Assembly (NCBI RefSeq): GCF_000739915.1
Contig: NZ_BBJT01000003.1
Coordinates: 682,001-746,000, forward strand
Length of the DNA: 64,000 nucleotides
Source: Paenibacillus chitinolyticus NBRC 15660
GTDB lineage: Bacteria; Bacillota; Bacilli; Paenibacillales; NBRC-103111
Direction of reading: 5' to 3'
Shown: piece by piece, positions 12,994 to 28,181 of the stretch
How positions within the stretch are numbered: position 1 is the first letter of the stretch
Layout: every line of letters starts with the position of its first letter
Position numbers and translations under genes: made by a program
Notes under the pieces: generated by a model
The model's input: the letters and a program-made list of their open reading frames with translations, nothing else
The model's database searches: none
Told to the model about the DNA's origin: nothing

Positions 12994-13020
12994 TTACCCA
13001 TGTTTCCCCCTACTTGAAAC
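12994..13020 (-). promoter_or_regulatory. SigB-type promoter for the 104-aa gene
   Basis: On the minus strand GTTTCA (13015-13020), 15-nt spacer, GGGTAA (12994-12999). The match to the SigB consensus is good, with a spacer one base longer than the other elements in this window. Confidence 0.6.
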
Positions 13021-13084
13021 CGTTTCTTCTGGCAGCCGTCCGTTATCCGAAAAACCGGACCGGCCTCTTACGAAGCCCATCCGT

Positions 13085-14026
13085 TTATTTCAGATTGGAA
13101 TTTTTGTTTTTCCCCTTGATAATATCGCCTGTCCAGCCCTTCCAATGAAGCCAGCCGAGGACTACAATAGGGAGAGCGACGATGAGACCCAAGGCCAGAT
13201 AATAGCCCGCCGTCCACTTCAGCTCCGGCATATTCTCGAAGTTCATGCCCCATATTCCCGCCAGCATCGTAGGCGGCGCAAATACGGCCGTAAAGACCGT
13301 CAACGTCTTCGTAATCTCATTCCCACGGTAGTTCGCAATACTCGTATCCAAGGCCAGCAGAGCCTCTACCTCTTCCGTATACAGCTTCAGCCGCGTCATA
13401 ATCCGCTCGATTTTGATGCACATTCTGCGGTGTTCCAATCCTTCTTCCATATTCTCGACAAACAACTCTTTGGTCGTCATCATCGTGTCTTTGAGCGGAC
13501 GCACCCATTTGGTCAGGTCCAGCAGCTCGTGACGGCGGTCAAGGATGCGGTCCAGCAGTTTGGAATTGTTTCTTTTTCTCATATGCTCCCCGACCTGGCG
13601 CATCTTTTTCTCATATTCCGTCAGAACATGCAGCAGCCGCTCCGCGATATAGCCAAGGATAACGAAAAGGCCTTCCAGCGCATTCTTGGCATTCAAGGCC
13701 TGTTCGCGGATCAAGTCCGGATCGAAGGGAGACAGCAGCTCTTCTTTGAAATTGATCGTAACCAGATGATGCTCGTTGACTAGAAAATGAAAGATCGGAG
13801 TGCCTTCCCGGCATTTGGAATCAAAATCGTAATAAAAAGCCCCCTCCAGCAGCTCGCTTCCTTTATGACGGTATAAACGGGCCTCGAACGGTTCCGCTGC
13901 GGCCTGTTTCACAAGCGGCTTCAGCTCTTCGGGCAGCGCATCGACCGCTACATTCAGATCTCCTTCCTTATCATGCAGGTCGTGCCAAACCCAATTCGAT
14001 GAAGATTCCAGCTCTTTATCTTCCAT
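13085..14026 (-). CDS. corA: CorA-family magnesium/divalent cation transporter
   Basis: A 313-residue membrane protein. The long N-terminal cytoplasmic domain is followed by the pore-helix signature GMN (in IWGMNFENMP, about residue 255) and a second C-terminal membrane segment ending in a basic tail (KGKNKNSNLK). CorA forms homopentamers that pass Mg2+ and related ions. ATG 14026 is chosen because AAGGAAGG (14033-14040) lies 6 nt upstream; the in-frame GTG at 14032 abuts that box. It lies downstream of sigB but behind the sigB terminator, so it is probably transcribed separately. Confidence 0.9.
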   Translation of the reverse strand: MEDKELESSSNWVWHDLHDKEGDLNVAVDALPEELKPLVKQAAAEPFEARLYRHKGSELLEGAFYYDFDSKCREGTPIFHFLVNEHHLVTINFKEELLSPFDPDLIREQALNAKNALEGLFVILGYIAERLLHVLTEYEKKMRQVGEHMRKRNNSKLLDRILDRRHELLDLTKWVRPLKDTMMTTKELFVENMEEGLEHRRMCIKIERIMTRLKLYTEEVEALLALDTSIANYRGNEITKTLTVFTAVFAPPTMLAGIWGMNFENMPELKWTAGYYLALGLIVALPIVVLGWLHWKGWTGDIIKGKNKNSNLK

Positions 14027-14058
14027 GTACACCCTTCCTTTACCAGAATGCTGTCATT

Positions 14059-14091
14059 AAAAAAGAACACGCTATAGCAACGTGTTCTTTT
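14059..14091 (-). terminator. Intrinsic terminator of rsbV-rsbW-sigB
   Basis: A perfect 11-bp stem (AAAAGAACACG / CGTGTTCTTTT) around a 9-nt loop, followed on the minus strand by a T-run. It lies about 30 nt beyond the sigB stop. Confidence 0.82.
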
Positions 14092-14119
14092 CTGCAGGTT
14101 CTATTGCTGCATGAACGGG

Positions 14120-14899
14120 TCAAGCTCCTTCACCGGGCTTGTTCTTCTCGAAATATTTGCGCAGCTTATCCAGCGCCCTTCGCTGAATACGGGATACGCT
14201 CATTTGAGAAACGCCAAGATCCTGGGCGATGGTTCTTTGCGAATATCCATCCACGTAAGCCAGCATCAGGACTTTCTGCTCCTCAGGCTTGAGGTGGCTC
14301 AGCGCCTCCTGCAAATCGAGTTTATTGTCGACATTGAGATACTCATCCACTTGAGTACCCAATACATCGCCAATCGTCGACCCGTTCTCTTCCGTTGAAA
14401 GCGGCATGTCCAAGGACACATAATGATAGCATTCACGTCCGGCCAAAATTTCAATCGTTTCCTCGACTGTCAGACCCAGCTCTTCCGCAATCTCATTGAC
14501 ATTGGGGGAGCGTTCCAGCCGCATCGTCAGATGATCGATCGCCTGTTGGATCTGGAATCCTTTTTCTTTAATCCGTCTCGGAACCTGAATATACCAGGAC
14601 TTGTCACGAAGATAATTCTTCATGTGGCCGATAATGCTCTTCATCATATAAGCATCAAACTGCACACCGTGAGAAGGGTCAAACTGTTTAAACAGCTTCA
14701 ACAGGGAGATTTGCCCGATTTGAATCAGATCTTCATACAGATCCGGTCGGTTGCGGGACATCTTCGCTGCAGCCATTTTCACAGTAGACTCGTATTGAAT
14801 AAGCAAAGAGGTAGCGATATCATTGCATTCGGTTTCCTGATACTGTCGAATCAGATCATGGATATGCTCCATCTCTTTCCTCTCGGATTGTAATTTCAT
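14120..14899 (-). CDS. sigB: RNA polymerase sigma-B-type general stress sigma factor
   Basis: A 259-residue group 3 (SigB/SigF/SigG type) sigma factor. Region 2 (DLYEDLIQIGQISLLKLFKQFDPSHGVQFDAY, about 52-85), region 3 (RRIKEKGFQIQQAIDHLTMRL) and region 4 with a helix-turn-helix (GYSQRTIAQDLGVSQMSVSRIQRRAL, about 218-243) are all visible. Its start overlaps the rsbW stop by 4 nt (ATGA), so the two are translationally coupled. The operon order rsbV-rsbW-sigB identifies it as SigB rather than a sporulation sigma factor. A SigB-type promoter before rsbV indicates autoregulation. No rsbR/S/T/U genes lie here; a nearby REC-PP2C operon probably supplies the input. Confidence 0.93.
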   Translation of the reverse strand: MKLQSERKEMEHIHDLIRQYQETECNDIATSLLIQYESTVKMAAAKMSRNRPDLYEDLIQIGQISLLKLFKQFDPSHGVQFDAYMMKSIIGHMKNYLRDKSWYIQVPRRIKEKGFQIQQAIDHLTMRLERSPNVNEIAEELGLTVEETIEILAGRECYHYVSLDMPLSTEENGSTIGDVLGTQVDEYLNVDNKLDLQEALSHLKPEEQKVLMLAYVDGYSQRTIAQDLGVSQMSVSRIQRRALDKLRKYFEKNKPGEGA

Positions 14900-15345
14900 A
14901 CCATTTCCTCACTTTTGCTGACCAGCTTCGTTAAGATAACTACAGTCCCATGATCCCCTTTCACCTCTACATGGTCCATCAGGGCTTGCATGAGATATAA
15001 TCCGAGGCCGCCGCTGCTCACTTCATCGAGTGATTTGTTGTGCAAAGAGTCGGCGGAACCCACTTTCGTGACATGATCAAAGCTGAGACCCTGATCCTGC
15101 ACGATAATTTTAATGCCGCCTTCCACCTCTTCGAAATGAACTTCCATTTTGCCGCCCTGGCCCGGCTCGTAAGCGTGAACCACAACGTTGTTGCAAGCCT
15201 CCGAAACGGCGACTTTCATATCTTCGATATCTTCATAAGAGAACCCCATCTTGGAGCTGATTCCATAGAGCGTCAAACGGACAAGATCGATGTATTCAGC
15301 TTCAGCAGGCAACGTTAAACTCACAGTACGATTTTTGGATTCCAT
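14896..15345 (-). CDS. rsbW: Anti-sigma-B factor and serine kinase
   Basis: A 149-residue GHKL-fold kinase. The N box VSEACNNVVVHAY, the G1 box VQDQGLSFD and the G2 box GGLGLYLMQALMD show an intact ATP site. RsbW holds SigB inactive and phosphorylates RsbV; when RsbV is dephosphorylated RsbW switches partner and frees SigB. It sits between rsbV (20-nt gap) and sigB (4-nt overlap). Confidence 0.93.
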   Translation of the reverse strand: MESKNRTVSLTLPAEAEYIDLVRLTLYGISSKMGFSYEDIEDMKVAVSEACNNVVVHAYEPGQGGKMEVHFEEVEGGIKIIVQDQGLSFDHVTKVGSADSLHNKSLDEVSSGGLGLYLMQALMDHVEVKGDHGTVVILTKLVSKSEEMV

Positions 15346-15365
15346 AGACCCTTTTCTTTCCTTTC

Positions 15366-15701
15366 TTAATTCACAGTATTCGCTACAGCCGACAAAAACG
15401 GTGTCAACCCCGTAAGGTCAAACAACTTCTGGACCTTGGGAGGGATATTCTCAACCGCAAAAGACGCTTTTAAAGCGTGACGGGTTTTGATGATCGTAAG
15501 GATAACTCCGATTCCCGTGCTGTCGATATAGGTCAGTTCTTTAAGATTGAGAATAAGTTTGCGTCCCACATCTTGCACAAACGGGTCCACGTTTGTATTA
15601 AATTCGGAAGCCTTGGAAAGATCCAGCTCCCCAATCAAAGAAATGATGTTATCATCATCTGTAATTTGTTTTTCCATCCGGAATTTGTTTTCTTGCACCA
15701 T
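15366..15701 (-). CDS. rsbV: Anti-sigma factor antagonist
   Basis: A 111-residue STAS-domain protein with the phosphorylated serine in the conserved TYIDSTGIGVIL motif (about residue 62). In its unphosphorylated state it binds RsbW and releases SigB. It is first in the rsbV-rsbW-sigB operon and has AGGAGG upstream. The PP2C phosphatase that would activate it is probably encoded at 26149-27288. Confidence 0.93.
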   Translation of the reverse strand: MVQENKFRMEKQITDDDNIISLIGELDLSKASEFNTNVDPFVQDVGRKLILNLKELTYIDSTGIGVILTIIKTRHALKASFAVENIPPKVQKLFDLTGLTPFLSAVANTVN

Positions 15702-15761
15702 TTATTTGTCCTCCTTAGTAAATGACCCACCAATTATAATAACCTGCGCATACTACTTACT

Positions 15762-15787
15762 TTACCCGCCATAATTCCAAGTGAAAC
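15762..15787 (-). promoter_or_regulatory. SigB-type promoter of the rsbV-rsbW-sigB operon
   Basis: On the minus strand GTTTCA (15782-15787), exactly 14 nt, GGGTAA (15762-15767). The predicted start lies about 53 nt before rsbV. Positive autoregulation of the sigB operon from such a promoter is well known in Bacillus, Listeria and Staphylococcus. Confidence 0.75.
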
Positions 15788-15849
15788 AGCTTTTTTATCT
15801 TTCTTGTTTTTACCAGCCCGCTTCGGGCTGTTCTTTGTAAGAAGCCGTC

Positions 15850-16308
15850 TTACTTGACGGCTACGCTTTTGCTGTTCGTCGTGCGGCTCTGCTTCAATCT
15901 CTTCCACATATCGACCGCTACCGGAACCAGAGGCGCGATTCGGTTCACGATGCTTTTCGGAGAGTTCAGCTCTTTCTCCACTTTGTTTCTCATTGTATTC
16001 GTTACGGTAGCCGAGGTCTGGCGCACGGAAGTCGTAATCTCGCTTACCACATCCCCGACATTTTTAATGGTATAAAAGGTTTTATCGAGCGCATGCAGCT
16101 TGTTGCGCACGTCCAGGCTAACCTCATTGGTATGACGAAGCAGTTCGTTTGCTTCCTGGCTTACTACCGTCACCTGCTGCTGAACTTGCTGAATGGTCTG
16201 GTTCGTCTGGGCAACGAGATCGGTCACCGACCGGAGTGTCTTCACCAGAAAAACGACGAGCACCACAAAGGCAACCGCAATAACCGCTAAACTAATTTGC
16301 CATATCAT
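15850..16308 (-). CDS. DUF948 family membrane protein
   Basis: A 152-residue protein with an N-terminal membrane helix (residues 4-24) and a long helical domain rich in Q, V and T that is probably coiled coil (about 30-110), as in DUF948 proteins related to YtxG of the Bacillus ytxGHJ stress operon. The C-terminal tail is basic. A GGGAGGGGA box precedes the start. It is divergent from dps, and each gene has a SigB-type promoter in the shared region. A small GC-rich hairpin (15812-15828) follows the gene but lacks a clear T-run. Confidence 0.8.
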   Translation of the reverse strand: MIWQISLAVIAVAFVVLVVFLVKTLRSVTDLVAQTNQTIQQVQQQVTVVSQEANELLRHTNEVSLDVRNKLHALDKTFYTIKNVGDVVSEITTSVRQTSATVTNTMRNKVEKELNSPKSIVNRIAPLVPVAVDMWKRLKQSRTTNSKSVAVK

Positions 16309-16377
16309 AAGCTATCCCCTCCCTTATACGTGAACCTTGCTCATGAAACCCGCCGAATCGACCGGCTCATCTCAGTT

Positions 16378-16403
16378 TTACCACCTGCCGGGCTCTTTGA
16401 AAC
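16378..16403 (-). promoter_or_regulatory. SigB-type promoter of the DUF948 gene
   Basis: On the minus strand GTTTCA (16398-16403), 14-nt spacer, TGGTAA (16378-16383). It has one mismatch to the -10 consensus. It lies back to back with the dps promoter; the two -35 boxes are 27 bp apart. Confidence 0.58.
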
Positions 16404-16430
16404 ACTGGATTTCCCGCTATAATTTGTCTT

Positions 16431-16456
16431 GTTTCGCCGGGTGGGGCTGCGGGTAA
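16431..16456 (+). promoter_or_regulatory. SigB-type promoter of dps
   Basis: GTTTCG (16431-16436), 14-nt spacer, GGGTAA (16451-16456), about 47 nt before the dps start codon. dps is a classic SigB-regulon gene in Bacillus. Confidence 0.72.
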
Positions 16457-16502
16457 TGAGCTTGTAGAGACGACTATTCAGAGTACAAGGGAGGAAATTA
16501 AC

Positions 16503-16964
16503 ATGGCTAAAACATCTACAGCTAAAGAAAAACAAACCGTAACTTTACTGAATAAACAAGTGGCAAACTGGGGTGTCATGTACGTCAAGCTGCATCAGTT
16601 CCATTGGTACCTCAAGGGCCCTTCGTTCTTCGTTCTCCATGTAAAATTCGAAGAGCTCTATAAAGAAGCCGATCTTTACCTCGACACGATTGCCGAGCGT
16701 ATCCTGGGACTTCAGGGAAGCCCGCTTTCCACAACGAAAGAATTCCAAACGAATTCTTCTATCAAAGAAGTTTCTCCGGAGCGCAATGCCGGCCAAATGG
16801 TAGAAGAGCTTATCCAAGACTTCCGCACCATTACGAAAGAATCCAAGGAAGCGATCGAAACCGCCGAAAACGAAGGCGATCCCGGTACGGCCGATATGCT
16901 GACTGAAATCTGCACCAACCTTGAAAAACACATCTGGATGCTGGAGTCTTACATAAACGACTAA
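16503..16964 (+). CDS. dps: Dps-family ferritin-like protein (DNA protection during starvation)
   Basis: A 153-residue four-helix ferritin-like protein. The inter-subunit ferroxidase residues are visible in KLHQFHWYLKG (about 31-41) and in the DLYLDTIAERIL segment (about 58-69). Dps forms dodecamers that store iron and shield DNA from peroxide. Its length is typical. AGGGAGG precedes the ATG. A SigB-type promoter lies directly upstream, and a 52-codon membrane gene follows 40 nt downstream. Confidence 0.93.
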   Translation: MAKTSTAKEKQTVTLLNKQVANWGVMYVKLHQFHWYLKGPSFFVLHVKFEELYKEADLYLDTIAERILGLQGSPLSTTKEFQTNSSIKEVSPERNAGQMVEELIQDFRTITKESKEAIETAENEGDPGTADMLTEICTNLEKHIWMLESYIND

Positions 16965-17004
16965 GACTACCGCAATTGATTCCATAAAGGAAGGAGGGAT
17001 ACCC

Positions 17005-17163
17005 ATGGATCAAGACAAAAATGTCGACATCGAGCAGAGACACATTGAGAAAAGATCGGATTCGAGCGCCGTCGCTTCTACTTTTATCAAATATGCGGCC
17101 TATCTCATCATCTTCTTTGGTTTCCTTTACTTCCTCATTAAATATGTATTCCCTAAATTTTAA
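17005..17163 (+). CDS. 52-aa single-pass membrane protein
   Basis: A short gene with a strong ribosome-binding site (AAGGAGGG, 8 nt before ATG). The product is charged in its first 18 residues (MDQDKNVDIEQRHIEKRS) and has one membrane helix near the C-terminus (AAYLIIFFGFLYFLIKY, about residues 31-47). The layout suggests a tail-anchored protein with its N-terminus in the cytoplasm. It follows dps on the same strand with a 40-nt gap and is followed by a terminator, so it is probably co-transcribed with dps. I know of no named family. Confidence 0.7.
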   Translation: MDQDKNVDIEQRHIEKRSDSSAVASTFIKYAAYLIIFFGFLYFLIKYVFPKF

Positions 17164-17173
17164 TAGATCTCCT

Positions 17174-17205
17174 TTAATCAGCCTTCTTGCAAGGCTGATT
17201 TTTTG
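17174..17205 (+). terminator. Intrinsic terminator of the dps operon
   Basis: AATCAGCCTT pairs perfectly with AAGGCTGATT around a 5-nt loop and is followed by a T-run. Confidence 0.85.
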
Positions 17206-17505
17206 TGTCACCGGCACCCTTGCTCCATATTCTACGCGTAGGTGTATAAGCGCCTTTGAGGCTCTCCAAATAGACAAAACCTATCGGCTGCACCTTATAT
17301 GATTCTAGTTTTCCGGATCTGCCAAGTCGGCTGCCGGGTTGTCGTGTCTGGTCAATCGAGTCGAGCATAAATGCTAGGACCTAGGCCCTTTCGGGTCTGC
17401 CTTGGCCCGGTCATGGTTTCCGGCTCCACGTTACCCTACACAGAGGTGTCTGTCTCCTCCTTTTAACTCGTTACAATCTCGACTTCAGATTTTATCCGAA
17501 ACAAA
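17206..17505. ncRNA. Gene-free, apparently structured segment; candidate non-coding RNA
   Basis: There is no credible coding frame here. The segment lies between the dps-operon terminator and a terminator at 17511-17536. Several complementary blocks are visible: CCGG-N4-GCCAAG (about 17316-17329) with CTTGGC-CCGG (about 17400-17410), AGCAT/ATGCT (about 17366-17378), and ACAC/GTGT near 17440. It shows none of the conserved cores of SRP RNA, tmRNA or RNase P RNA that I looked for. The strand is uncertain. It could also be a decayed gene or a long untranslated region. Confidence 0.35.
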
Positions 17506-17510
17506 ACAAC

Positions 17511-17536
17511 AAAAAACCCGCTTAACGCGGGTTTTA
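17511..17536. terminator. Bidirectional terminator
   Basis: AAAACCCGC-TTAAC-GCGGGTTTT is flanked by A-run and T-run on both strands. It ends the 17567-18202 gene on the minus strand and could also end a plus-strand transcript from the preceding gene-free segment. Confidence 0.75.
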
Positions 17537-17566
17537 CCTTCTTAATAGGATTCAAGCAGGTCGTTC

Positions 17567-18202
17567 TTATTCCGTAACGCTGGAGAAGAAATGAACCGAT
17601 TTTAACTGACCGCTGTTAGGGTCTACAAACAATTTCAGCGCTTGACTGTCGTGCGTGTAGACCAGGCCGTCCTCGGCTACCCAGTAAGGCTCTCCCAGCG
17701 TCTTTTCGAGCGCCTGTAAATTATTCGCCACCGGCTTGCCGTCGAGATTAATCTGTTTGTGATCCGGGGTAACTTCTACATATTCAACCCCATATTCCCC
17801 TACGGCAACGCGGCAATCCGGATACTCAAGAATTTTCGTGTCACCGAAAAATTCATCCTTCCGGATGGATTTCGGCTCTCCCTTCCGCTTCACAATCGCA
17901 TTCACATCGTCGGACAGAGAGATGCCGTTTACGCGTTCCAGTTTGATGGAACCGGACGTCCCTACAGGCGATACTTCGGCCGGAGCTACCGCCGGCATTG
18001 CCGACACCGTACCGTTAGCATTAGCCGTCTTGTATCCCGCTATCTCCGTAATGGCACCTCCAGCGCCAAGAACCAAAGGAGGTGCCGCCTGAGAAATGAG
18101 TCCGTCATCCGCACCTGCGGACGCAGGCCCCTCAAGTCCATGAGCGCCGCCGAAAAGCAGCGCACCGCCAAGCAGCGCCATCGTCAGTGATTTCTTGTTC
18201 AT
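17567..18202 (-). CDS. Secreted protein of unknown function
   Basis: A 211-residue protein with a signal peptide (residues 1-30, MNKKSLTMALLGGALLFGG...). An alanine/proline/glycine-rich low-complexity region follows (about 30-85), then a folded part that starts near LERVNGISLSDD. The folded part contains two related stretches (INAIVKRKGEPKSI-like and LQALEKTLGEPYWV), each resembling the short repeats that compare a LGEP motif with a downstream Y/V-rich strand. I do not recognise a family with certainty. GGAGGG precedes the ATG. It is monocistronic and ends at a strong terminator. Confidence 0.72.
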   Translation of the reverse strand: MNKKSLTMALLGGALLFGGAHGLEGPASAGADDGLISQAAPPLVLGAGGAITEIAGYKTANANGTVSAMPAVAPAEVSPVGTSGSIKLERVNGISLSDDVNAIVKRKGEPKSIRKDEFFGDTKILEYPDCRVAVGEYGVEYVEVTPDHKQINLDGKPVANNLQALEKTLGEPYWVAEDGLVYTHDSQALKLFVDPNSGQLKSVHFFSSVTE

Positions 18203-18307
18203 CTGGAGTCCCTCCTAAGACGTATTGGGGTCATGAGCGGCTAAGGGATGATTACAGAGTCTGAAAATATGCTAAAAACATGATTGAAAGTGCAACCAAT
18301 CGTGTGG

Positions 18308-18700
18308 TTATTGGCCCGCAGCGGAAGCTTCAAACGCTTGATCCGCATAACTGGCGTCATAGGCGTAAACAAACTGGCTGGGAACCGCCACGACTACAAT
18401 GCGCCCCCGCGAAATTTCCTCTTCGTAATAAGGAATCGCGCTTCCTGCCAGTCCGAGCGAGATGAGCTTGGAGCGCATCGCCATGCCGCTGCCGCGGAAA
18501 ACAGTCGCCATCGTATAGGCCATTTGCTCTGCGGAGAAGCCGATACGGCTCGTATAACGCGGCCTCAGCATCTCCTCCGTGTCTACCGCTTCATCGGACA
18601 GCACGTGAATGCAGTGCGGTTCGCACCCGGCGGTTTGAAGCTGACGAATGACATCGCGGATTTCCTTCTCGCTGTCGACGACAATAATGGAATGATTCAC
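18308..18700 (-). CDS. YflT/GSP17M-like general stress protein
   Basis: A 130-residue protein whose layout matches the YflT domain: an N-terminal beta-alpha unit (SIIVVDSEKEIRDVIRQLQTAG), a variable middle with a methionine-rich helix, and a closing strand after a Y-x-E-E-x-x-R-G motif (YYEEEISRGRIVVVAV). The same architecture is in the gene at 27744. GTG 18700 is taken as the start because GGGGGAT lies 7 nt upstream and it begins just after glgC; a longer frame overlaps glgC. It is probably in an operon with glgC. Confidence 0.72.
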   Translation of the reverse strand: MNHSIIVVDSEKEIRDVIRQLQTAGCEPHCIHVLSDEAVDTEEMLRPRYTSRIGFSAEQMAYTMATVFRGSGMAMRSKLISLGLAGSAIPYYEEEISRGRIVVVAVPSQFVYAYDASYADQAFEASAAGQ

Positions 18701-18713
18701 GTGAATATCCCCC

Positions 18714-19904
18714 TTAACCGATACGCTGCTCGAGACGAGGCAGGTAAATTTTCGGAGCTTTGTCGTTGATCTTGTAAAGCACCTCATGATCTCCGACCAC
18801 ACTAATCGTTTGGGCATCCGTCTTGCCTACCGTTACACCGTCGCACAATACGCTTCCCTCGCCGATAATGGCTTTATGGAGCTTTACGTTGTTCCCTATC
18901 CGGACATTCGGCATAATCACACAGTCCGTCAGAACGCTGCCTTTGCCTATGTAAACTCCATGAGAGATTACCGAGTTCTGAACTTGACCGTACACGGCGC
19001 AGTTTTCGCTGATCAGGGAACGGTCGACTTTAGCCGTACGGTCGACGTGCGGCTTTGCATTGGCAACCCGGGCCGTATACATCGGCCATTCGAGTTCGCT
19101 CATAAGCGGAGAACCGTTCAGCAGGTCCATTTGGGCCTGCCATAGGCTGTCGATCGTGCCGACATCCTTCCAATAGCCCTCATAAGAGAAGGAATGAACG
19201 CGAACACCTTCTTCGACCATCATCGGAATGACATCCTTACCGAAATCGTGAGAAGAATCCGCCGACAAATCGTCACGCTCCAGCACTTTCTTCAGGAAAT
19301 CCCAGTTGAATACGTATATTCCCATCGAAGCCAGATTGCTCTTCGGCTGTGCCGGTTTCTCTTCAAACTCGACAATACGTCCTTCCTCGTCCGTGTTCAT
19401 AATTCCGAAACGGCTCGCTTCGTCCCAGCCTACCGGCTTAACCGCGATCGTCGCGACCGAACCGAGCTTTTGATGCTGTTCGATCATTTTACTGTAATCC
19501 ATTTGGTAAATGTGGTCGCCCGAAAGCACCAATACATATTCCGGATCGTGCTTTTCAATAAAATGGCGGTTCTGATAAACCGCGTTGGCCGTTCCCGTAA
19601 ATTCGTTGCCGATTACATGTTCCTGGTTCGAGCAAAGCACTTCGACGCACCCTTTGTCCGTTTCACTGAGCCAAGCTTCACCCGTTCCGATGTGCTGATG
19701 AAGGGATTCCGGTTTGTATTGGGTGACAACACCGATCGTGTCGACGCCGGAGTTGCGGCAGTTGCTGAGCGCGTAATCGATCATTCGGTAGCGGCCCGCG
19801 AAATGAACCGCCGGTTTCGCCGTATTTTGGGTAAGCGCACCGAGTCGGCGGCCTTCACCTCCTGCTAGTAGTAAAGCTACACTCTGTTTTCTCATCTCTG
19901 TCAC
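18714..19904 (-). CDS. glgC: Glucose-1-phosphate adenylyltransferase
   Basis: A 396-residue nucleotidyltransferase making ADP-glucose for glycogen synthesis. The N-terminal nucleotide loop GGEGRRLGALTQNTAKPAVHFAG, the catalytic SGDHIYQMDY motif and a C-terminal left-handed beta-helix (residues about 290-385) are clear. glgA, glgB, glgD and glgP are not adjacent. Instead a YflT-type stress gene follows 13 nt downstream and a weak SigB-type promoter lies upstream, which hints that storage-sugar synthesis is stress-linked here. Confidence 0.92.
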   Translation of the reverse strand: MTEMRKQSVALLLAGGEGRRLGALTQNTAKPAVHFAGRYRMIDYALSNCRNSGVDTIGVVTQYKPESLHQHIGTGEAWLSETDKGCVEVLCSNQEHVIGNEFTGTANAVYQNRHFIEKHDPEYVLVLSGDHIYQMDYSKMIEQHQKLGSVATIAVKPVGWDEASRFGIMNTDEEGRIVEFEEKPAQPKSNLASMGIYVFNWDFLKKVLERDDLSADSSHDFGKDVIPMMVEEGVRVHSFSYEGYWKDVGTIDSLWQAQMDLLNGSPLMSELEWPMYTARVANAKPHVDRTAKVDRSLISENCAVYGQVQNSVISHGVYIGKGSVLTDCVIMPNVRIGNNVKLHKAIIGEGSVLCDGVTVGKTDAQTISVVGDHEVLYKINDKAPKIYLPRLEQRIG

Positions 19905-19992
19905 CTGATCCTTTCGTAGTTGTCGATTTTATTTTTTCTATAAGAAAGAGTTCTTGTTTATTTAGTCTCAAGTAAAACTTGTCTAACTTTAA

Positions 19993-20018
19993 ATACCCCG
20001 TGCGGAGAATTCATAATC
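19993..20018 (-). promoter_or_regulatory. Weak SigB-type promoter candidate for glgC
   Basis: On the minus strand GATTAT (20013-20018), 14-nt spacer, GGGTAT (19993-19998). The -10 is perfect but the -35 matches only four of six positions. It lies about 89 nt before glgC. The rest of the 330-bp gap between glgC and the next gene holds no coding frame. Confidence 0.4.
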
Positions 20019-20186
20019 AACTTAATTTGATTTGTTCGCTTTTATTTGTACAATCTGTAAAACTATTGCTGTCAGGGGTCAGCCCGGTTTATATCGCTTC
20101 TATCTTATTCCCACCCGCCTCTATATCTTGATAGTACCTGTTCTTACACCGCCTCCCATTCCTTTGAATCAATAAAAAAAGACAAC

Positions 20187-20230
20187 AAAAAAAGCCCCGC
20201 AAACCGCATTCTGCGCGTGTTTACGAAGCT
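20187..20230 (-). terminator. Terminator of the signalling operon
   Basis: On the minus strand an imperfect stem (AGC..CG..AAAC.CGC with GCG.TTT.CG..GCT) is followed by seven T. It starts just after the stop codon of the REC-kinase gene at 20235. Confidence 0.65.
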
Positions 20231-20234
20231 TTTA

Positions 20235-21419
20235 TCAAACGCGGAGTTCTTCCGCCTGTACGGTAAAAACAAATTCGGTGCCTTGGCCCTCTTGTGAGTA
20301 AACTTCCATTTTGCCGGACATGAGCTCCACAAGATTTTGACAAATGACAAGCCCCAAGCCGGTTCCTCCGTATTTCCGCGTCATCGAAGAGTCCACCTGT
20401 GTAAAAGGCTGGAACAGCCGGTTTCTTTTCTCGGCTGGAATTCCGATTCCCGTATCGCGGACCCGGAATTGAAGAATAATCCGGCTGCCGTCCCCGGCTT
20501 TTCCCAGATTCGTCACTTGAACCTTAATGCCGCCCGTCTCCGTGAATTTAACCGCGTTGCCGATCAGATTAATGAGCACCTGACGGAGCTTCAGCTCATC
20601 CCCGATGAGATGGGTCGGAACATTCTCCGCAATTTCCCGTTCCAGATTGAGGTCCTTCTTGCGGCATTCGCCGTAGAACAGATCCATCGTTTCTTCCATG
20701 CAGACGTCCAAATCGAACGGCTCGGTGTTCATCTCCATTTTGGAAGATTCGAGTTTGGTGAAATCGAGAATCTGATTGATAATATGCAGCAGCGCGGCAC
20801 CGCTCCGCGAAATGGTATCGGCATATTCCCGCTGTTCATCCGAAAGCTCCGTTTCCAGGAGCAGATCGGTCATCGCCATGACCCCGTTCATGGGCGTGCG
20901 GATTTCATGGCTCATCAGCGCAAGAAACTCGGATTTGGCCCGGTTGGCGGATTCCGCCGCTTCTTTAGCCGTCAGCAGTTCCTGTGTCCGCATATTCAGC
21001 AGCTCCGACTGGTGCTGGAGCTTTTTCTGAACGAGGTACAGGTTCACGAATCCTTCGATCTTGGCTTTCAGCGTGTGAGGCACAAATGGTTTGACGATAT
21101 AATCAATGGCACCGACGGAATAAGCCGCGAAGACATGCTCCTTCTCATGGGAAGCCGCTGTAATGAAAATAATCGGGATATCCTTCGATTTCTCCCGGGA
21201 TTTGATCCAACGGGCCGTCTCGAAACCGTCCATGCCCGGCATCTGAACGTCCAGGACAATTACGGCGAAATCGTCGTGCAACAAACATCGAAGGGCCTCT
21301 TCACCCGAGCCCGCTTTTACCAGATGGTAGTTCTCTTCCGCAAGAACGGCTTCAAGCGCCAGCAAATTCTCGGGCTGATCGTCTACCATCAGTATTTTAA
21401 TCGGTTCATCCAAGTTCAC
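20235..21419 (-). CDS. REC-histidine kinase (response regulator fused to kinase)
   Basis: A 394-residue soluble signalling protein. An N-terminal receiver domain (1-120; acidic pocket VDD, phosphoacceptor in [10 protein letters not shown], lysine in IVKPF) is joined by a helical linker to a HisKA domain (histidine in [10 protein letters not shown] near 171) and a HATPase domain (N box [10 protein letters not shown] boxes DTGIGIP and GGTGLGL). There is no membrane segment, so input should come from phosphotransfer or a partner, probably the 1225-aa kinase in the same operon. GTG is the start codon, with GGAAGGGG upstream. It is the last gene of the operon, 46 nt after the methyltransferase gene. 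Confidence 0.88.
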
Positions 21420-21465
21420 TTCGAGAAACCCCTTCCTCCAACTCGTCTCCTCATCTAATGCAGCG

Positions 21466-22335
21466 TCACTGCACCTTGCGGTAAATTTTGTCGGCTGTAC
21501 TGACGGCTTCGTAAGCGGACGCGTGCTTGGTGAAAGTGATCGTTTCTTTATCGCCCAAAATCAGAAACCCGGACGGTCCCAGGCTTTCGTAGATGAGCGT
21601 ATGCACCTGGTTCTGGAGCTGCGTATTGAAATAAATCAATACGTTCCGGCACAAAATCACATGGAACTCGTTAAACGAACGATCCGTAACCAGGTTATGC
21701 TGGGCAAAAACAATATTATCACGCAAAAAGGAATGCAACGTAACGGAATCCTTCGAAGCCGTATAGTACTTCGAGAAAGCTTCCTTGCCTCCGGACTGCA
21801 GGTAGTTTCTCGTATAGTCTTTCATGCTGCGCAGCGGATAGATTCCTTTCTCCGCCTTTTTAAGCACATCCTCGTTTATATCCGTCGCATAAATCCGGGT
21901 GCGGTCGTAGAGCCCCTCTTCGTGCAGCAGGATCGCCATGGAGTAAACTTCCTCTCCGGTGGCGCAGCCCGCATGCCAGATGCGAATCGCCGGATACTGG
22001 CGGAGCAGGGGAACCACCTTCTGGCGGAAGCTGAGGAACACCTCGGGATCGCGGAACATCTCGGTTACGTGAATCACCAGATCCGACAGCAGGCGCTCCA
22101 GGCACTCCCGATCGTGCAGCACTCTCTCCTGCAGGCCGGAAACGGTCGTCAGCTTCTCCGCCAGGATGCGGTGCCAGATCCTCCGCCGGATAGACGGGTA
22201 CGAATAATTACGGAAGTCGTATCCGTAAATCCGGTAAATGCCCTCGAGCAGCAGACTGATCTCGATGCGTTCATGCTCGGCCTGCAGCCCGGAAAAAGTC
22301 GGCAGTTGATCTATAGGGTGAAAATTCGAATCCAA
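21466..22335 (-). CDS. CheR-type methyltransferase, RsbM-like
   Basis: A 289-residue SAM-dependent protein glutamate methyltransferase. The N-terminal helical domain precedes the SAM-binding motif [17 protein letters not shown] (about 124-140), TDINEDVL and the CRNVLIYF motif. Stand-alone CheR enzymes next to hybrid kinases occur in Bacillus cereus, where RsbM methylates the kinase RsbK and damps SigB activity. The neighbour here is a large membrane hybrid kinase of RsbK-like layout. TTG is the likely start, with AAGGAG 9 nt upstream. A chemotaxis role is less likely because no chemotaxis genes are nearby. Confidence 0.85.
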
Positions 22336-22421
22336 ATTGTCTCTCTCCTTCTCCTCCGAATCGATCCTGCGGCACGTCTTTAGATGTTTCTTATTCAGAG
22401 GGTTCGCATTTGCTCCTTCTC

Positions 22422-25400
22422 TTACTTAAACAACCAAACGCGAATTAGAGACATTAACTGATCATTATTTATCGGTTTTGTTATATAATCCGACGCGCCG
22501 GCCCGTATACACTTCTCCCGGTCATCCCGCATGGCCTTCGCGGTCAAGGCGATAATCGGCAGATTATCGAATTGCGGCATGCTGCGGATCTCCTTCATAG
22601 CCTCATAACCGTCCATTTCCGGCATCATGATATCCATCAGAACGAGATCAAGATCCGGTTCCTTCTCAAGAATGGACAAGGCTTGGCGTCCGGTCTCCGC
22701 AAACAGCACCTTCATATTGTAGCCTTCCAGCAGGTTGGATAGCGCAAACACGTTGCGGATATCGTCATCGACGAGAAGTACCTTCTTGCCGGCAAATACC
22801 GCTTCGCTGCTGTGAAGACGCTGCAGAATCCGCTTTTTCTCCTCCGGCAGTGTTTCTTCCACCCGGTGCAGGAACAGCGCCGTTTCGTCAAGCAGCCGTT
22901 CCGGCGATTTTACGTTCTTGATGATGATGGACTCCGCGTATTTCTTAAGTCTCATCTCGTCTTTCTTATCGTATTCTTTTTCCGTGTAAATAACAATCGG
23001 CAGACGGCGAAGCTCTTCCTCCGCTTTGATCCGCTCCAGCAGATCGAATGCGGAGTGGTCCGCTAGGCCAATATCAAGAACCATGCAGTCGAAATGCCGC
23101 TCTCTTAACTTCACGATCGCTTCATCCGCCGTTGTCGCCACTTCGATAAGGACATCGTCGTGACGGATAAGCTCGATCAGATTGTTCATTTGGACGGGAT
23201 CATCCTCTACAAGCAGGAGCTTCCGCAGATTTTGATCTATGAATCCTTCGAGCTCGATAAAGGCTTGCTCCAGCACATCCTTGCTGGAAGGCTTGCGCAT
23301 ATAGGCTATCGCGCCCATAGAGAGCCCCTGGTGCACTTCGTCGACTACCGACATCACGTGCACCGGGATATGCCGGGTCTCGGCGTTGTTCTTGAGCTGG
23401 ACGAGAATCGACCAGCCGTCGACGATCGGCAGCTGGATATCCAAGATGATGCCGTCCGGTTTATACTCTTTCGCCATCTGCAGCCCGATATCCCCCTGCA
23501 TCGCGACCAGAGCCTTAAATCCGCGGCTGCGGGCCATGTCGACGAGCACGTTCATAAAGTGCACGTCGTCTTCCACGATCAGCAGCACTTTATCGTTCTC
23601 GGTGATGCTGCCCCGGTCGTCCTCCACCTCTCGCTGGGCGGCTTTCGGAACCGGTTTAACCGGCACGGGCGCAGGTGCCGGAAGCTGTGGCACTGCCGGC
23701 GCGTCAGGGAGCGGCAGTGCCTGCTGCTCCTGTCCAGCGGCAGCCGCCTCGGCCGATCCTCCTACGCGCTCGGAATACTTCCGGTGCGGGATGAACAGCG
23801 TGAACGTGCTGCCTTCCCCTTCCCGGCTGCAGATTTCGATCGTACCGCCGAGGAGGCCCGCGAGCTGCTTGGAGATGGACAGCCCGAGTCCCGTTCCGCC
23901 GAACTGCCGGCTCGTCGTCCCGTCGGCCTGCTGGAACGCTTCGAAGATAATCTGCTGCTTCTCTTCGGCGATCCCGATTCCCGTATCCTTGACGGAGAAA
24001 GCGATTTGCGGCTCTCCCTCCTTGACGGGATAGACATGCAGAAGTACGGAGCCTTGGGACGTGAATTTAAAGGCGTTGGACAGCAGATTCCGCAAAATCT
24101 GCTCCAGCCGCATGCTGTCCGTATAGAGCATGCGCGGAACGCCGCTGTCGATCGTAATTTCAAAGCCCAGCGCCTTCTTGCGCGCGACTTGTTCAAACGA
24201 ACGCTGGATCGTTTCCATGATATCCGGCACGAGAACATACTCGGCCTGGACCTCCACTTTCCCGGCTTCTACCTTCGAAAGGTCGAGGACATCATTGATC
24301 AATTTGAGCAAATCGGAGCCGGAAGAGTGAATCGTCTCCGCGTATTCCACCTGCTTGTCGTACAGGTTGCTGTCTTTATTCTCCGCAAGCATCTGCGAAA
24401 GAATAAGCATACTGTTAAGAGGCGTACGCAGTTCATGCGACATATTGGCCAAAAATTCGGATTTGTACTTCGAAGCCATCGCCAGCTCGAACGCCTGCTT
24501 TTCCAGCGCTTCCTTGGCTTCCTCGATCTGGCGGTTAGCCAGCTCCGTTTCTTGAACCTGGGTCTGGAGCTGCTTCGTTTTGCGGAGCAGCTCTTCGTTA
24601 TTCTGCTCCAACTCTTCCTGCTGGGACTGCAGCAGCTCTTCGGACGCTTTCAGCGCCTTCGTCTGCTCCTCCAGCTTCTCATTGGAAGTGCGCAGTTCTT
24701 CCTGCTGGGAAATGAGCTCTTCGGACTGGCTTTGCAGTTCCTCCGTCAAGGCCTGCGACATGCGGAGGAGCTCCTCGACCCGTTCGCGGGAACGGATCCG
24801 CCCGATGGAAACCGCGAGATTCTCCGTCAACTGCTCCAGCAGATCCAGTTCATTCTCGCTGAGCATTTTCAGTCCCGCAAATTCAACGACGGCTCCGACT
24901 TCTTCTTCGGACACGACCGGCTCCACAACGAGATACTTCGCGTCCAACTGTCCGAAAGAAGATTGGATAGTCAAATACGTATCCACTTCGTCCTGGACCA
25001 TGATCCGCCGGCCGTCGGCGGCCGCCTGGCCTACAAGACCTTGACCGAGCGCGAACTCGGGCAGAAGATTGTCCTCGGGATCTTTGTCGAAAGCGTAAGC
25101 CGAGGACAGAACGAGCCTCGTCCTCATACCTTCCCGCTCCAACAGATACACCGCTCCGAACGTGGCGCCGATCATGCGGGACGCTTCCGAAATAAAACTG
25201 TTTGTCAAGTCGTGCATGTTCGTCTGATCCTGAAGGAGCATGCTCATGTTCGCCACGTTAGACTTCAGCCATGCCTGATCTTCGTTCTGCTTGTTGAAGG
25301 TCCGTTCGTTGTGCATTAATTCTTCCAGATCGTCGGCCATCACGTTGAAAACTTCGGCTACTTTGCCGAATTCGTCCGTCGTCGTCACCTCAACGCGGTA

Positions 25401-26099
25401 TCCCGGGTCAAACCGGCCGTTGCCGAAACCTTTGATCATGCCGGTCAGCAGGGCGAGCCCGCGGGACAAGCTGCGCATGATCCAGTACATGATCCCTAGG
25501 CCGATGACCAGAGCAGCAACCGTCAGCAGAATCGTCAAGAGCAGCGTTTTGCTGTTGGAAGCTTTAAATTCGTTAATCCCTTTTTGTACGTTATCGTCCA
25601 GATATTGCGTTAAATGATCCACGCTCTCTGTTACCTGATCTTGATAGCTAACGCCGATATCGGTTCTCAGTTTGTTCGCTTCCGCTACCTTGCCGTTGTC
25701 ATAAAGCTCGATCGCCTGATTCAGGTAGGACATAAAATTTTCGGTGCTTTTGACCGTCTCATAGGTAAGCTGCTTCTCCACATCCGAATCGGCGGATTTT
25801 TGGAGAGCGGCCACCCCTTCTTTCAGCTTCTCTTTGTAAGTGTTCGCTTTAGCCAGGTTTTCCTTGGCTCCCGGCTGATTAGGATCTGAGTTAAGCAGCA
25901 GATTCGCCATATATTTGGCGATCGAATTGACGTCCGAGCGGGCCGTGTAGGCCAACCGTGTCTTGTTAAAACGGTTGACAAACGCGCTATCGAGGCTCTC
26001 GTCGATACTGCTTATCCGAGTCGTCCCGATTCCCGCCAGCACGAACATCAAGATAAACAAAAGCCCGAAACCCGCCATGAGCTTTGTTGATATTTTCAT
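22422..26099 (-). CDS. Large hybrid histidine kinase (4HB sensor-HAMP-GAF-HK-3xREC), RsbK-like
   Basis: A 1225-residue membrane kinase. Approximate domains: membrane helix 8-28, extracytoplasmic helical bundle 30-185, membrane helix 187-208, HAMP 208-262, GAF 285-430, long Q/E-rich coiled coil 435-540, HisKA with SHELRTPLNS near 553, HATPase 655-775 (NLLSNAFKF, DTGIGIAEE, GGTGLGLSI), a proline/alanine linker, then three receiver domains at about 840-955, 960-1085 and 1105-1222, each with its phosphoacceptor aspartate. The membrane-HAMP-GAF-kinase-REC order matches Bacillus cereus RsbK, the sensor for SigB activation, though this protein has two extra receivers. It is second in the operon after the REC-PP2C gene. 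Confidence 0.88.
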   Translation of the reverse strand: MKISTKLMAGFGLLFILMFVLAGIGTTRISSIDESLDSAFVNRFNKTRLAYTARSDVNSIAKYMANLLLNSDPNQPGAKENLAKANTYKEKLKEGVAALQKSADSDVEKQLTYETVKSTENFMSYLNQAIELYDNGKVAEANKLRTDIGVSYQDQVTESVDHLTQYLDDNVQKGINEFKASNSKTLLLTILLTVAALVIGLGIMYWIMRSLSRGLALLTGMIKGFGNGRFDPGYRVEVTTTDEFGKVAEVFNVMADDLEELMHNERTFNKQNEDQAWLKSNVANMSMLLQDQTNMHDLTNSFISEASRMIGATFGAVYLLEREGMRTRLVLSSAYAFDKDPEDNLLPEFALGQGLVGQAAADGRRIMVQDEVDTYLTIQSSFGQLDAKYLVVEPVVSEEEVGAVVEFAGLKMLSENELDLLEQLTENLAVSIGRIRSRERVEELLRMSQALTEELQSQSEELISQQEELRTSNEKLEEQTKALKASEELLQSQQEELEQNNEELLRKTKQLQTQVQETELANRQIEEAKEALEKQAFELAMASKYKSEFLANMSHELRTPLNSMLILSQMLAENKDSNLYDKQVEYAETIHSSGSDLLKLINDVLDLSKVEAGKVEVQAEYVLVPDIMETIQRSFEQVARKKALGFEITIDSGVPRMLYTDSMRLEQILRNLLSNAFKFTSQGSVLLHVYPVKEGEPQIAFSVKDTGIGIAEEKQQIIFEAFQQADGTTSRQFGGTGLGLSISKQLAGLLGGTIEICSREGEGSTFTLFIPHRKYSERVGGSAEAAAAGQEQQALPLPDAPAVPQLPAPAPVPVKPVPKAAQREVEDDRGSITENDKVLLIVEDDVHFMNVLVDMARSRGFKALVAMQGDIGLQMAKEYKPDGIILDIQLPIVDGWSILVQLKNNAETRHIPVHVMSVVDEVHQGLSMGAIAYMRKPSSKDVLEQAFIELEGFIDQNLRKLLLVEDDPVQMNNLIELIRHDDVLIEVATTADEAIVKLRERHFDCMVLDIGLADHSAFDLLERIKAEEELRRLPIVIYTEKEYDKKDEMRLKKYAESIIIKNVKSPERLLDETALFLHRVEETLPEEKKRILQRLHSSEAVFAGKKVLLVDDDIRNVFALSNLLEGYNMKVLFAETGRQALSILEKEPDLDLVLMDIMMPEMDGYEAMKEIRSMPQFDNLPIIALTAKAMRDDREKCIRAGASDYITKPINNDQLMSLIRVWLFK

Positions 26100-26148
26100 A
26101 TAAAACTTCCCTCTCCCCTTTATTCCTTTCTCTGTAAACGGTCCATCC

Positions 26149-27288
26149 TCAAGGAATATCGATCCAGATCAGACAAATATCATCCATGTGATTGTTTTGG
26201 ACCTCTTCGTCCAGCAGTTCGTCCACTACCGCGTGAAGTCCCATATCCCCTTTTTGCTGAACAGCCGTGATAAGGCGCGTCGGCAGCTCCGTCTCGGCCT
26301 CTTCTATTTCCTCGAGAAGTCCGTCGGTATAAAGCAGAATCCGTGATTTTCCCGTGTAAGTGATCCGACCGGGCTTGATATCCATTTCCTCGAAAAAACC
26401 GACCGCACAGGTTCCGTTCGCAAGGGGGATCGCCTTACCGCTGTCGTTCATAAGAAAGCCCGGCGGGTGGCCGGCATTTACGTAGTCGATGGTTTTGTTC
26501 TTCGTATCTACCAGCATATAAATCGCCGTGAAATAATAGTTCAAATGATTCTGGTCGTTATGCAGCCGGTTCATATACCGGTTCAGTTCGGCAATTACAA
26601 GCTCCGGCGTCACAAACTTAGTAATCGTATCCCGGAGGACCGAGGAGATAAACATGCAGACGAGCGACGAAGAAATGCCGTGACCCATAATGTCCAGCAG
26701 CATAACCCCGTAACGGTCTTCGTCTATGGGATACCAGTTGTACAAATCTCCCGCAAGCTCATAAGAAGGATTGTAGTACGCTTCGATTCGGATTTTCTCG
26801 GTTTCGATCGGCAGGCTGAGTACGCTGCTCTGCACGTTTTTCGCCAATTGCAGCTCGGAACGAATCCGCTTGTCGTTCTCTTTGTGCCAGTCTTTCTCGT
26901 ATTTGAGCCGCAGGGCGGATTTAATCCGGGCTACCAGCTCGATTTTGTTGATAGGCTTGGTTACGTAATCGATCGCTCCCGCTTCCAAAGCCTCCGCCAG
27001 TTTAATGGAATCTCCCATGGCCGTGATGATAATAATCGGAATGTCTTTCAGTTCTTCGATTTGCTGCAATTTTTTGCAGGCTTCGATCCCGTCGATTTCC
27101 GGCATCATCAGGTCCATCAAAATCAAATCGATTTGTAAATCCGAGGAACTCGGATTGTCGATTTTCAACATGTCAAACAGTTCCATAGCAGAAGAAGCGC
27201 GGTGCATATTAGAGTAGCCCGCGCTTTTCAATATTTTTTCGATCACAATAAGATTGACCGGATTATCGTCTACAATCATGATGCTCAT
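26149..27288 (-). CDS. REC-PP2C serine phosphatase, RsbY-like
   Basis: A 379-residue protein: an N-terminal receiver domain (1-120; IVDDN, phosphoacceptor in LILMDLMMPE, VTKPI), a short helical linker, and a C-terminal SpoIIE/RsbU-type PP2C domain (about 165-379) with metal-binding motifs AGDLYNWY, DIMGHG, NAGHPPG, YTDGLLE and DDICLI. This is the layout of Bacillus cereus RsbY, which dephosphorylates RsbV once its receiver is phosphorylated by RsbK. It is first in the four-gene signalling operon (AAAAGGAG before ATG). The target RsbV is 11 kb away, so the link is inferred. Confidence 0.88.
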   Translation of the reverse strand: MSIMIVDDNPVNLIVIEKILKSAGYSNMHRASSAMELFDMLKIDNPSSSDLQIDLILMDLMMPEIDGIEACKKLQQIEELKDIPIIIITAMGDSIKLAEALEAGAIDYVTKPINKIELVARIKSALRLKYEKDWHKENDKRIRSELQLAKNVQSSVLSLPIETEKIRIEAYYNPSYELAGDLYNWYPIDEDRYGVMLLDIMGHGISSSLVCMFISSVLRDTITKFVTPELVIAELNRYMNRLHNDQNHLNYYFTAIYMLVDTKNKTIDYVNAGHPPGFLMNDSGKAIPLANGTCAVGFFEEMDIKPGRITYTGKSRILLYTDGLLEEIEEAETELPTRLITAVQQKGDMGLHAVVDELLDEEVQNNHMDDICLIWIDIP

Positions 27289-27639: not shown

Positions 27640-27743
27640 TAAGAGTCATGAACGACAGGCAAACAACCTGAACAACGAAGTCGCCGCGGCATCAGCAATA
27701 AGACAAGAAAGCTGCGGCTTAAACGATAAGGAGGAGAATGAAT

Positions 27744-28181
27744 ATGGAAACCAAAGTGAGACTTGCAGCTAACGAAGAACAAGCCCTGCGCGAGGTGAAA
27801 AATTTGCAGGCGGAAGGCTTTAATCTGGATGAAATTTACGTAATGACACATGATAACGACCGTACCGAAGGCGTTGCGGAAATGACGAATACGAATGAAG
27901 TCGGTGTAGCGGAGGAAGGCTTGATGACGGCCGCCGCCAACCTGTTCCGTTCGAAAGGCGATAAGCTCCGTGCCAAAATGGAATCGCTCGGCCTGAGCTC
28001 TTCCGAAGCGGATACCTATGAGAAGGAGCTTGACCGCGGTAAAATCCTTGTCATCGCTTATGCGGACCGCGACGGCGACGGCTATCCTCACGACGGACGT
28101 CTTCGCGGAGAGGAAACGACGCTCCCGCCTACGGGCATTTACATGAGCGGCCGCGATAATCAGAACAGCAATCTGTTCTAA
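27744..28181 (+). CDS. YflT-domain general stress protein
   Basis: A 145-residue soluble protein with the YflT (GSP17M-type) domain: LAANEEQALREVKNLQAEGF at the start, the central helix of LFRSKGDKLRAKMESLGL, and EKELDRGKILVIA followed by an acidic/arginine tail. B. subtilis YflT is heat- and SigB-induced. The start at 27744 leaves 9 nt to AAGGAGG; the ATG at 27738 would leave only 3. A SigB-type promoter lies upstream. It is homologous in layout to the gene at 18308. Confidence 0.85.
   Translation: METKVRLAANEEQALREVKNLQAEGFNLDEIYVMTHDNDRTEGVAEMTNTNEVGVAEEGLMTAAANLFRSKGDKLRAKMESLGLSSSEADTYEKELDRGKILVIAYADRDGDGYPHDGRLRGEETTLPPTGIYMSGRDNQNSNLF

Follow-up and report, generated by a model that had tools for sequence, protein, structure and literature searches.

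How does Paenibacillus chitinolyticus NBRC 15660 activate its sigma factor SigB? The question is raised by a 64-kb stretch of its genome (GCF_000739915.1, contig NZ_BBJT01000003.1, positions 682,001–746,000, forward strand; 'the window' throughout, numbered from its first letter), in which genes for a phosphatase, two histidine kinases and a methyltransferase lie near rsbV-rsbW-sigB. A first-pass annotation had proposed that these genes form the same circuit as the RsbK-RsbM-RsbY system of Bacillus cereus. Our analysis indicates that SigB appears to be activated by a sensor-kinase circuit like that of B. cereus, but one that sits on a different kinase branch and is nearly always accompanied by an extra kinase. 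The genome comprises 6.43 Mb in 32 contigs and is 98.4% complete.

A four-gene module close to rsbV-rsbW-sigB

The genes follow one another head to tail on the minus strand. The first, rsbY (26149–27288), encodes a 379-residue response regulator that combines a receiver (REC; Pfam, 93 bits) with a SpoIIE-type PP2C domain (128 bits), carries D59, K111 and the PP2C motifs, and is the presumed phosphatase of phosphorylated RsbV (RsbV~P). It is followed by the gene for a 1225-residue RsbK-like membrane hybrid kinase (22422–26099) with the architecture 4HB_MCP_1-HAMP-GAF-long S-helix-HisKA-HATPase-REC-REC-REC and acceptor H555, by that for a 289-residue RsbM-like CheR-type methyltransferase (21466–22335), identified through Pfam, sequence search and trees, and by that for a 394-residue REC-HisKA-HATPase histidine kinase (20235–21419; the REC-kinase). 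H, N and G1 boxes are present in both kinases. Next come glgC-like and YflT-domain genes and then rsbV (15366–15701), encoding a STAS-domain anti-anti-sigma factor with a DST motif, rsbW (14896–15345), encoding the anti-sigma kinase (NF003144, 174 bits against a cut-off of 145), and sigB (14120–14899). The sigB product has TIGR02941 (SigB) as its top NCBIfam match, at 210 bits, below the cut-off of 315, and we therefore call it, with support from synteny, a divergent SigB.

Gaps of only 46–86 bases separate the four genes, which is compatible with a single operon; the set lies 4.5–11.6 kb from rsbV-rsbW-sigB. Since the same layout recurs across the family, the arrangement is not due to chance. 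Pfam and NCBIfam thus bear out the genes, coordinates, strand, domains and proximity to rsbV-rsbW-sigB given in the first-pass annotation, which had left out the number of receivers and the 4HB sensor. Searches of the PDB returned generic receivers, one REC-phosphatase-like regulator (3eq2) and chemotaxis CheR.

RsbY as the probable SigB phosphatase

Our assignment of RsbY proceeds by elimination. The genome contains four SpoIIE-family matches: RsbY, an 837-residue frame that we take as SpoIIE, and two weak ones, named by eye as an FHA-linked PP2C and as a PrpC-like protein encoded next to an rlmN-like gene. This search found no RsbU-type phosphatase in the genome besides RsbY and SpoIIE. There are three STAS proteins, namely RsbV, SpoIIAA and a 510-residue frame taken for a transporter by size only. 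Of the 26 HATPase_c_2 matches, only RsbW and SpoIIAB are both short and strong (SpoIIAB is encoded in the dacF-spoIIAA-spoIIAB-sigF operon), the others lying in frames of at least 349 residues. The STAS and HATPase_c_2 searches thus found none of the stressosome proteins RsbR, RsbS and RsbT in the genome. Since the searches turned up neither stressosome proteins nor another RsbU-type phosphatase, SigB is very probably activated by RsbY, as in B. cereus, where the phospho-acceptor of RsbY is likewise D59 (according to the part of PMC4574943 available to us). The link of an RsbY-type phosphatase to rsbVW-sigB drawn in the first-pass annotation therefore stands. RsbY is widespread in the family: 84 of 104 genomes have a match at E ≤ 1e-60.

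Kinase and methyltransferase subfamilies

In our comparisons the B. cereus type was represented by Neobacillus rhizophilus and N. cucumis (loci L144 and L137) rather than by B. cereus sequences, none of which we recognised in samples of 398 genomes of the class and 299 of the order; the Neobacillus loci were chosen because their gene order and RsbK domains fit the descriptions in the available parts of PMC4574943 and PMC9912610. There, the B. cereus cluster is given as rsbV, rsbW, sigB, a bacterioferritin gene (bc1005), rsbY, rsbM and rsbK, and RsbK as matching CHASE3-HAMP-GAF-S-helix-HK-CA (HK, histidine kinase) with one receiver. The Neobacillus loci read rsbV-rsbW-sigB-rsbY, a Dps-like gene and rsbK-rsbM, with CHASE3-HAMP-GAF-HK-REC as the RsbK architecture in L144. 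The window kinase departs from this architecture in having 4HB_MCP_1 and three receivers. The sensor alone fails to separate the types: of 29 scanned kinases of the B. cereus type ('type A'; 41 rows), 16 matched CHASE3 and 16 matched 4HB, some of them both, while 4HB was matched in 20 of the 21 scanned rows of the window type ('type B').

Reciprocal searches gave a divided picture. With Neobacillus RsbK as the query, the top match in the P. chitinolyticus genome was a 900-residue CHASE3 kinase encoded near dacF-spoIIA (48% identity over the full length, E = 2.5e-246), and the window kinase (best segment 6.9e-97) ranked third by best segment and second with segments summed. In the reverse direction, the best single segment in both Neobacillus genomes (G762 and G763) belonged, by its coordinates, to the sigB-cluster RsbK, whereas summed segments favoured another kinase in both. 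This second Neobacillus kinase (K2; loci L355 and L356) lies beside a CheR gene and a REC-PAS-kinase gene, with no rsbY alongside. In single alignments K2 obtains a better score with Neobacillus RsbK than with the window kinase (568 versus 444 bits for L355, 541 versus 430 for L356), the lower figures arising because the extra receivers split the alignment with the window kinase. Neobacillus RsbM found the window RsbM first (58%); the only other match in the genome, a CheR with an assumed role in chemotaxis, is 28% identical to Neobacillus RsbM and 30% to the window RsbM. The methyltransferase of the Neobacillus cassette without rsbY (M2) scored 349 and 363 bits against the window RsbM and 330 and 341 against Neobacillus RsbM, a small pairwise difference. 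RsbY is 53% identical to its Neobacillus counterpart. No B. cereus protein was among the best 12 of 249 matches of RsbM to plasmid records. A generic scan with two peptide patterns returned at least 80 loci; 13 among the matches listed were Bacilli RsbY loci, and the analysis covered these.

Trees were built after removal of near-identical rows. The methyltransferases of the window type join that of the Neobacillus cassette without rsbY (support 100/98), and the genome's other CheR sits on a very long branch. In the tree of kinase cores, type B (99/98) includes the kinase of the same cassette and two paralogues from the P. chitinolyticus genome. Forcing the window type together with the B. cereus type was rejected for the sigB-linked methyltransferases (p = 0.0006) and for the kinases (p = 0.044 with the core, p = 0.011 with the core and last receiver), values that flatter the split because the groups were named after the trees had been seen. 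In the tree of core plus last receiver, which left out eight type-B rows of one Paenibacillus branch whose last receiver was missed by the pattern, the split is supported at 91/78 and one of the genome's own paralogues (L349) moves to the other side; the window type and Neobacillus K2 alone form no clade in the best tree, yet such a clade is not rejected (p = 0.23). Taken together, these trees suggest that the window kinase and methyltransferase belong to a subfamily separate from the B. cereus type as represented by Neobacillus. The RsbY tree, on the other hand, places the window type and the sigB-linked B. cereus type together (97/91), and a clade of type A only is not rejected (p = 0.093, tested with L127, L102 and L103 excluded). 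For this reason we dropped as unproven the idea of a kinase swap in which type B replaced type A beside rsbY.

Two paralogues of the window kinase deserve mention. One (L350:6612–11282) is a second triple-receiver kinase of the same subfamily, encoded directly before a REC-kinase with no CheR beside it, and has very many EEL heptads. The other (L349:6164–11941) is a 1925-residue kinase with about ten tandem HAMP domains, a GAF domain, a histidine kinase core and three receivers.

EEL heptads precede the acceptor histidine in all 62 kinase rows (a few genomes are represented twice). Measured from an anchor defined by a flexible pattern, the distance to the histidine is 55, 62, 83, 90 or 111 residues, the last in the long three-receiver kinases. 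Across all 62 rows this distance equals 6 modulo 7, which is suggestive of an S-helix that lengthens by whole heptads.

The REC-kinase as a companion of type-B kinases

We classified 71 loci by the catalytic core of the kinase beside rsbY; one is from the Brevibacillus family and two are from Neobacillus. Close relatives among the loci enter the counts individually, and the figures below are therefore not independent events. A type-B kinase stands beside rsbY in 52 loci, a type-A kinase only in 13 and neither in six. An intact REC-kinase gene is found in 50 of the 52 type-B loci, never more than 300 bases from the gene for the kinase or for RsbM; none of the 13 type-A loci has one. The two exceptions are L096, where the REC-kinase is in broken frames, and L369, where the contig ends inside the kinase. 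The added REC-kinase of the first-pass annotation is thus real, and it is a regular companion of type-B kinases rather than a local addition. It comes as REC-HK, REC-HK-REC or REC-PAS-HK, the latter with or without a last receiver. RsbM was not seen in six of the 52 type-B loci (L103, L111, L369, L385, L391 and L392). Among loci of neither type, L097 and L123 have rsbY with a REC-kinase, L123 being cut by the contig end; L374 has none of these kinase and methyltransferase genes, and only short stretches are available for L367 and L394. The remaining locus, L102, has next to rsbY a kinase with a REC-kinase-type core behind a 4HB-HAMP-GAF sensor.

SigB-type promoters

Sites of the form GTTTC[AG]-N14/15-GGGTA[AG] occur in the window upstream of rsbV (GTTTCA-N14-GGGTAA, 15762–15787, minus strand), of a Dps/ferritin-like gene (GTTTCG-N14-GGGTAA, 16431–16456, plus strand) and of two further small genes, namely the open reading frame at 12623–12955 (GTTTCA-N15-GGGTAA, 12994–13020, minus strand) and a small membrane-protein frame seen by eye within the open reading frame at 10976–11617 (GTTTCA-N14-GGGTAG, 11288–11313, plus strand; pattern match). 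For the first three we also looked for a footprint in relatives, using the published form of the consensus, which is independent of the window sites, and excluding matches with less than 60% coverage or fewer than 120 bases upstream. Upstream sites were found for the Dps-like gene in 16 of 21 cases, for the DUF948 gene in 27 of 37, for rsbV (counting second copies) in 15 of 66 and for the second YflT gene in 7 of 49; 35 of 56 loci have one upstream of rsbV or the DUF948 gene. Low values were obtained for rsbM (0/58), the REC-kinase gene (0/52) and rsbW (1/67). Of the 31 loci that show no sigB within about 9 kb on each side, 11 carry a SigB-type promoter upstream of rsbY, against an expectation of 0.7, and none carries one upstream of rsbM; this ties RsbY to SigB even when the two are unlinked.

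These 31 Bacilli loci (L112–L121, L134 and L272–L291) have rsbY with rsbK-rsbM and no rsbVW-sigB match within about 9 kb on each side (less at contig ends). In ten class-sample genomes among them (L112–L121) an RsbW match is found elsewhere at E ≤ 1e-50.

A proposed circuit and its alternatives

We consider it highly likely that the four-gene operon controls SigB through RsbY. The scheme that we infer, in its enzymatic steps, its direction of phosphotransfer and its signal, would run as follows. A dimer of the type-B RsbK would sense a signal through its extracellular four-helix bundle and GAF domain, and the RsbM-like enzyme would damp the kinase by methylating glutamates of the long S-helix. 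Upon stress the kinase would autophosphorylate at H555 and pass the phosphoryl group to D59 of RsbY, either directly or via the REC-kinase, which may be placed between RsbK and RsbY. RsbY~P would then dephosphorylate RsbV~P, RsbV would capture RsbW and SigB would be freed, possibly transcribing rsbVW-sigB anew from the SigB-type promoter.

Several observations weigh against this assignment. The type-A CHASE3 kinase encoded elsewhere in the genome could also feed RsbY. In L374, rsbY lies beside rsbVW-sigB in a stretch without kinase, methyltransferase or REC-kinase. A SigB match is present in only 27 of the 52 type-B loci, a lower bound because only about 14 kb downstream, or less where a contig ends, is covered, compared with 13 of 13 type-A loci. 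Upstream of rsbY, neither the window nor the Paenibacillales set of 71 loci shows a SigB-type promoter. Genome-wide, the strict promoter pattern has 30 matches (14 for a backward control), four of them in the window (binomial p = 0.0002), a value that is partly circular because the pattern was picked after the window sites had been seen; a loose SigB pattern shows no enrichment in the window, with 10 matches against an expected 9.6. Of the 52 class-sample genomes with a close full-length RsbY (E ≤ 1e-110), 51 have an RsbW match below 1e-40 (the exception is an assembly in 400 contigs), which is weak support since RsbW is over the cut-off in 270 of the 398 genomes regardless of RsbY.

The route from the type-B kinase to RsbY may include a relay between kinases, with RsbK acting on the receiver of the REC-kinase and the latter serving as the direct phosphodonor (or phosphatase) of RsbY. 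The near-constant presence of the REC-kinase beside type-B kinases and its absence from type-A loci speak for this, as do L097, L123 and L102, where the REC-kinase or its core accompanies rsbY, and the finding that all four Hpt matches of the genome lie in other contigs, none near the module. Yet type-B kinases have almost the same acceptor helix as type-A kinases, for which a direct action on RsbY is assumed; kinases unlinked to rsbY look alike as well, so the helix does not discriminate and we dropped its residues as a predictor of partners. L123, moreover, is truncated, and L097 was judged within its own stretch, an RsbK elsewhere in its genome not having been searched for. We regard the relay as possible while leaning somewhat against it. 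The stronger proposal, that in type-B modules a methylated membrane hybrid kinase signals through the REC-kinase, as the true phosphodonor, to the phosphatase and the partner switch, replacing the direct RsbK-RsbY step and leaving the CHASE3 kinase an orphan by the sigF operon, is rather doubtful. That CHASE3-HAMP-GAF-HK-REC kinase (G000:C30:829699–832386, minus strand; L348:11700–14402), encoded upstream of dacF-spoIIAA-spoIIAB-sigF, might conversely be the true RsbK and phosphorylate RsbY in trans. It is the best match to Neobacillus RsbK in the genome, shares its domain order, CHASE3 sensor and single receiver, and groups with type A in the core-plus-receiver tree (99/90). It lies about 120 kb from rsbY, however, with no CheR found in the surrounding 20 kb, and the core-only tree places it weakly nearer type B (86/81), a type-A clade that includes it being merely not rejected (p = 0.278). 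Such a role in trans seems quite improbable.

Were the operon fully orthologous to rsbKMY of B. cereus, the differences in the trees would be noise and the REC-kinase a passenger. RsbM as the best match, the identity between the RsbY proteins and their joint clade, the best single segments of the reverse kinase search and the preference of one Neobacillus K2 for Neobacillus RsbK (568 bits) over the window kinase (444 bits) all fit this reading; RsbKY with RsbM has, moreover, been published for two Paenibacillus genomes and equated with the B. cereus system (PMC9847131, in the part available to us). Against it, the forward RsbK search picks another kinase, the kinase and RsbM trees split the types, the window kinase has a different architecture and the REC-kinase co-occurs with one kinase type only, and we think full orthology unlikely. 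An operon that serves another output, for instance chemotaxis-like or cyclic di-GMP signalling, and lies near sigB by chance might be imagined from the kinase-CheR-REC-kinase cassettes without adjacent rsbY in Neobacillus and from the kinase and REC-kinase pair without CheR in L350. This is most improbable: 52 of the 71 loci have rsbY next to a type-B kinase, the genome has no short STAS protein besides RsbV and the sporulation one, and its other CheR is only distantly related to the window RsbM.

Control of SigB through RsbY by the type-B operon therefore remains our preferred reading, and the first-pass interpretation as a whole is partly supported. Its claim of the same circuit as in B. cereus did not hold for the kinase, which is not the forward best match, has a 4HB sensor with three receivers, and falls with its methyltransferase into a separate subfamily. 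The comparison by reciprocal search and phylogeny that it had called for, made with Neobacillus as the stand-in, favoured its proposal for RsbM in the search and disfavoured it in the forward kinase search and in both trees, with a mixed reverse search. A check for chemotaxis-family grouping did not refute the methyltransferase assignment, given the low identity (28–30%) and long branch of the other CheR.

Relation to known systems

Like the B. cereus system, as described in the available parts of PMC4574943 and PMC9912610, the module has a REC-PP2C RsbY with D59, a CheR-type RsbM and a membrane hybrid kinase that contains HAMP, GAF and S-helix; it is linked to rsbVW-sigB, with ferritin-like and YflT genes in or close to the cluster and no stressosome. 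It differs in its sensor (4HB, not CHASE3), its three receivers where B. cereus RsbK has one, its additional REC-kinase, the order rsbY-kinase-methyltransferase-REC-kinase and, judged by the Neobacillus stand-in, a separate kinase and methyltransferase subfamily. By tree, the kinase and CheR of the Neobacillus K2-M2-REC(PAS)-kinase cassette belong to the same subfamily as those of the window, and its REC-kinase has a related receiver; but no RsbY lies beside the cassette, and the catalytic part of its REC-kinase looks, by eye, to be of another type. In B. subtilis, the RsbRST-RsbU stressosome pathway acts through a PP2C phosphatase and the RsbV/RsbW/SigB partner switch; switch and PP2C are shared with the P. 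chitinolyticus genome, in which no RsbR, RsbS or RsbT was found. In Pseudomonas, HsbR/HptB likewise has a receiver-controlled PP2C that acts on a STAS protein, with several kinase inputs and a separate Hpt protein, whereas no Hpt match lies near the window module. The stressosome is outlined in PMC9847131, and 127 RsbK-like kinases in ten phyla are reported in PMC4574943 (both as available in part).

Among the open-licence papers searched we found none on a REC-kinase partner or on two kinase subfamilies. Our results suggest that a single phosphatase is fed by two kinase and methyltransferase subfamilies, one of which brings a second kinase along. SigB control would then be more diverse on its input side than has been described. 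Loci that retain the REC-kinase or its core alone offer a natural experiment on the phosphorylation of RsbY and on why RsbK has receivers, a question left open for B. cereus in the available part of PMC4574943.

Neighbouring genes

A gene for a YflT-domain stress protein (27738–28181, plus strand; Pfam) diverges from rsbY, and a second YflT-domain gene lies at 18308–18817 on the minus strand (Pfam). The Dps/ferritin-like gene (16503–16964, plus strand), named by eye, is a probable SigB target, given the SigB-type promoter upstream. Positions 11288–16964 form an apparent SigB stress island of YtxH-like, DUF948 (YtxG-like) and Dps-like genes, named by eye, with SigB-type promoters and rsbVW-sigB. 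Finally, two RsbW genes are present in 13 of the 71 loci (L098, L100, L101, L104, L136, L138, L392, L393 and L395–L399); the second rsbV-rsbW pair, often adjoining glgC-like genes and with no sigma gene seen alongside, may constitute a second partner switch.

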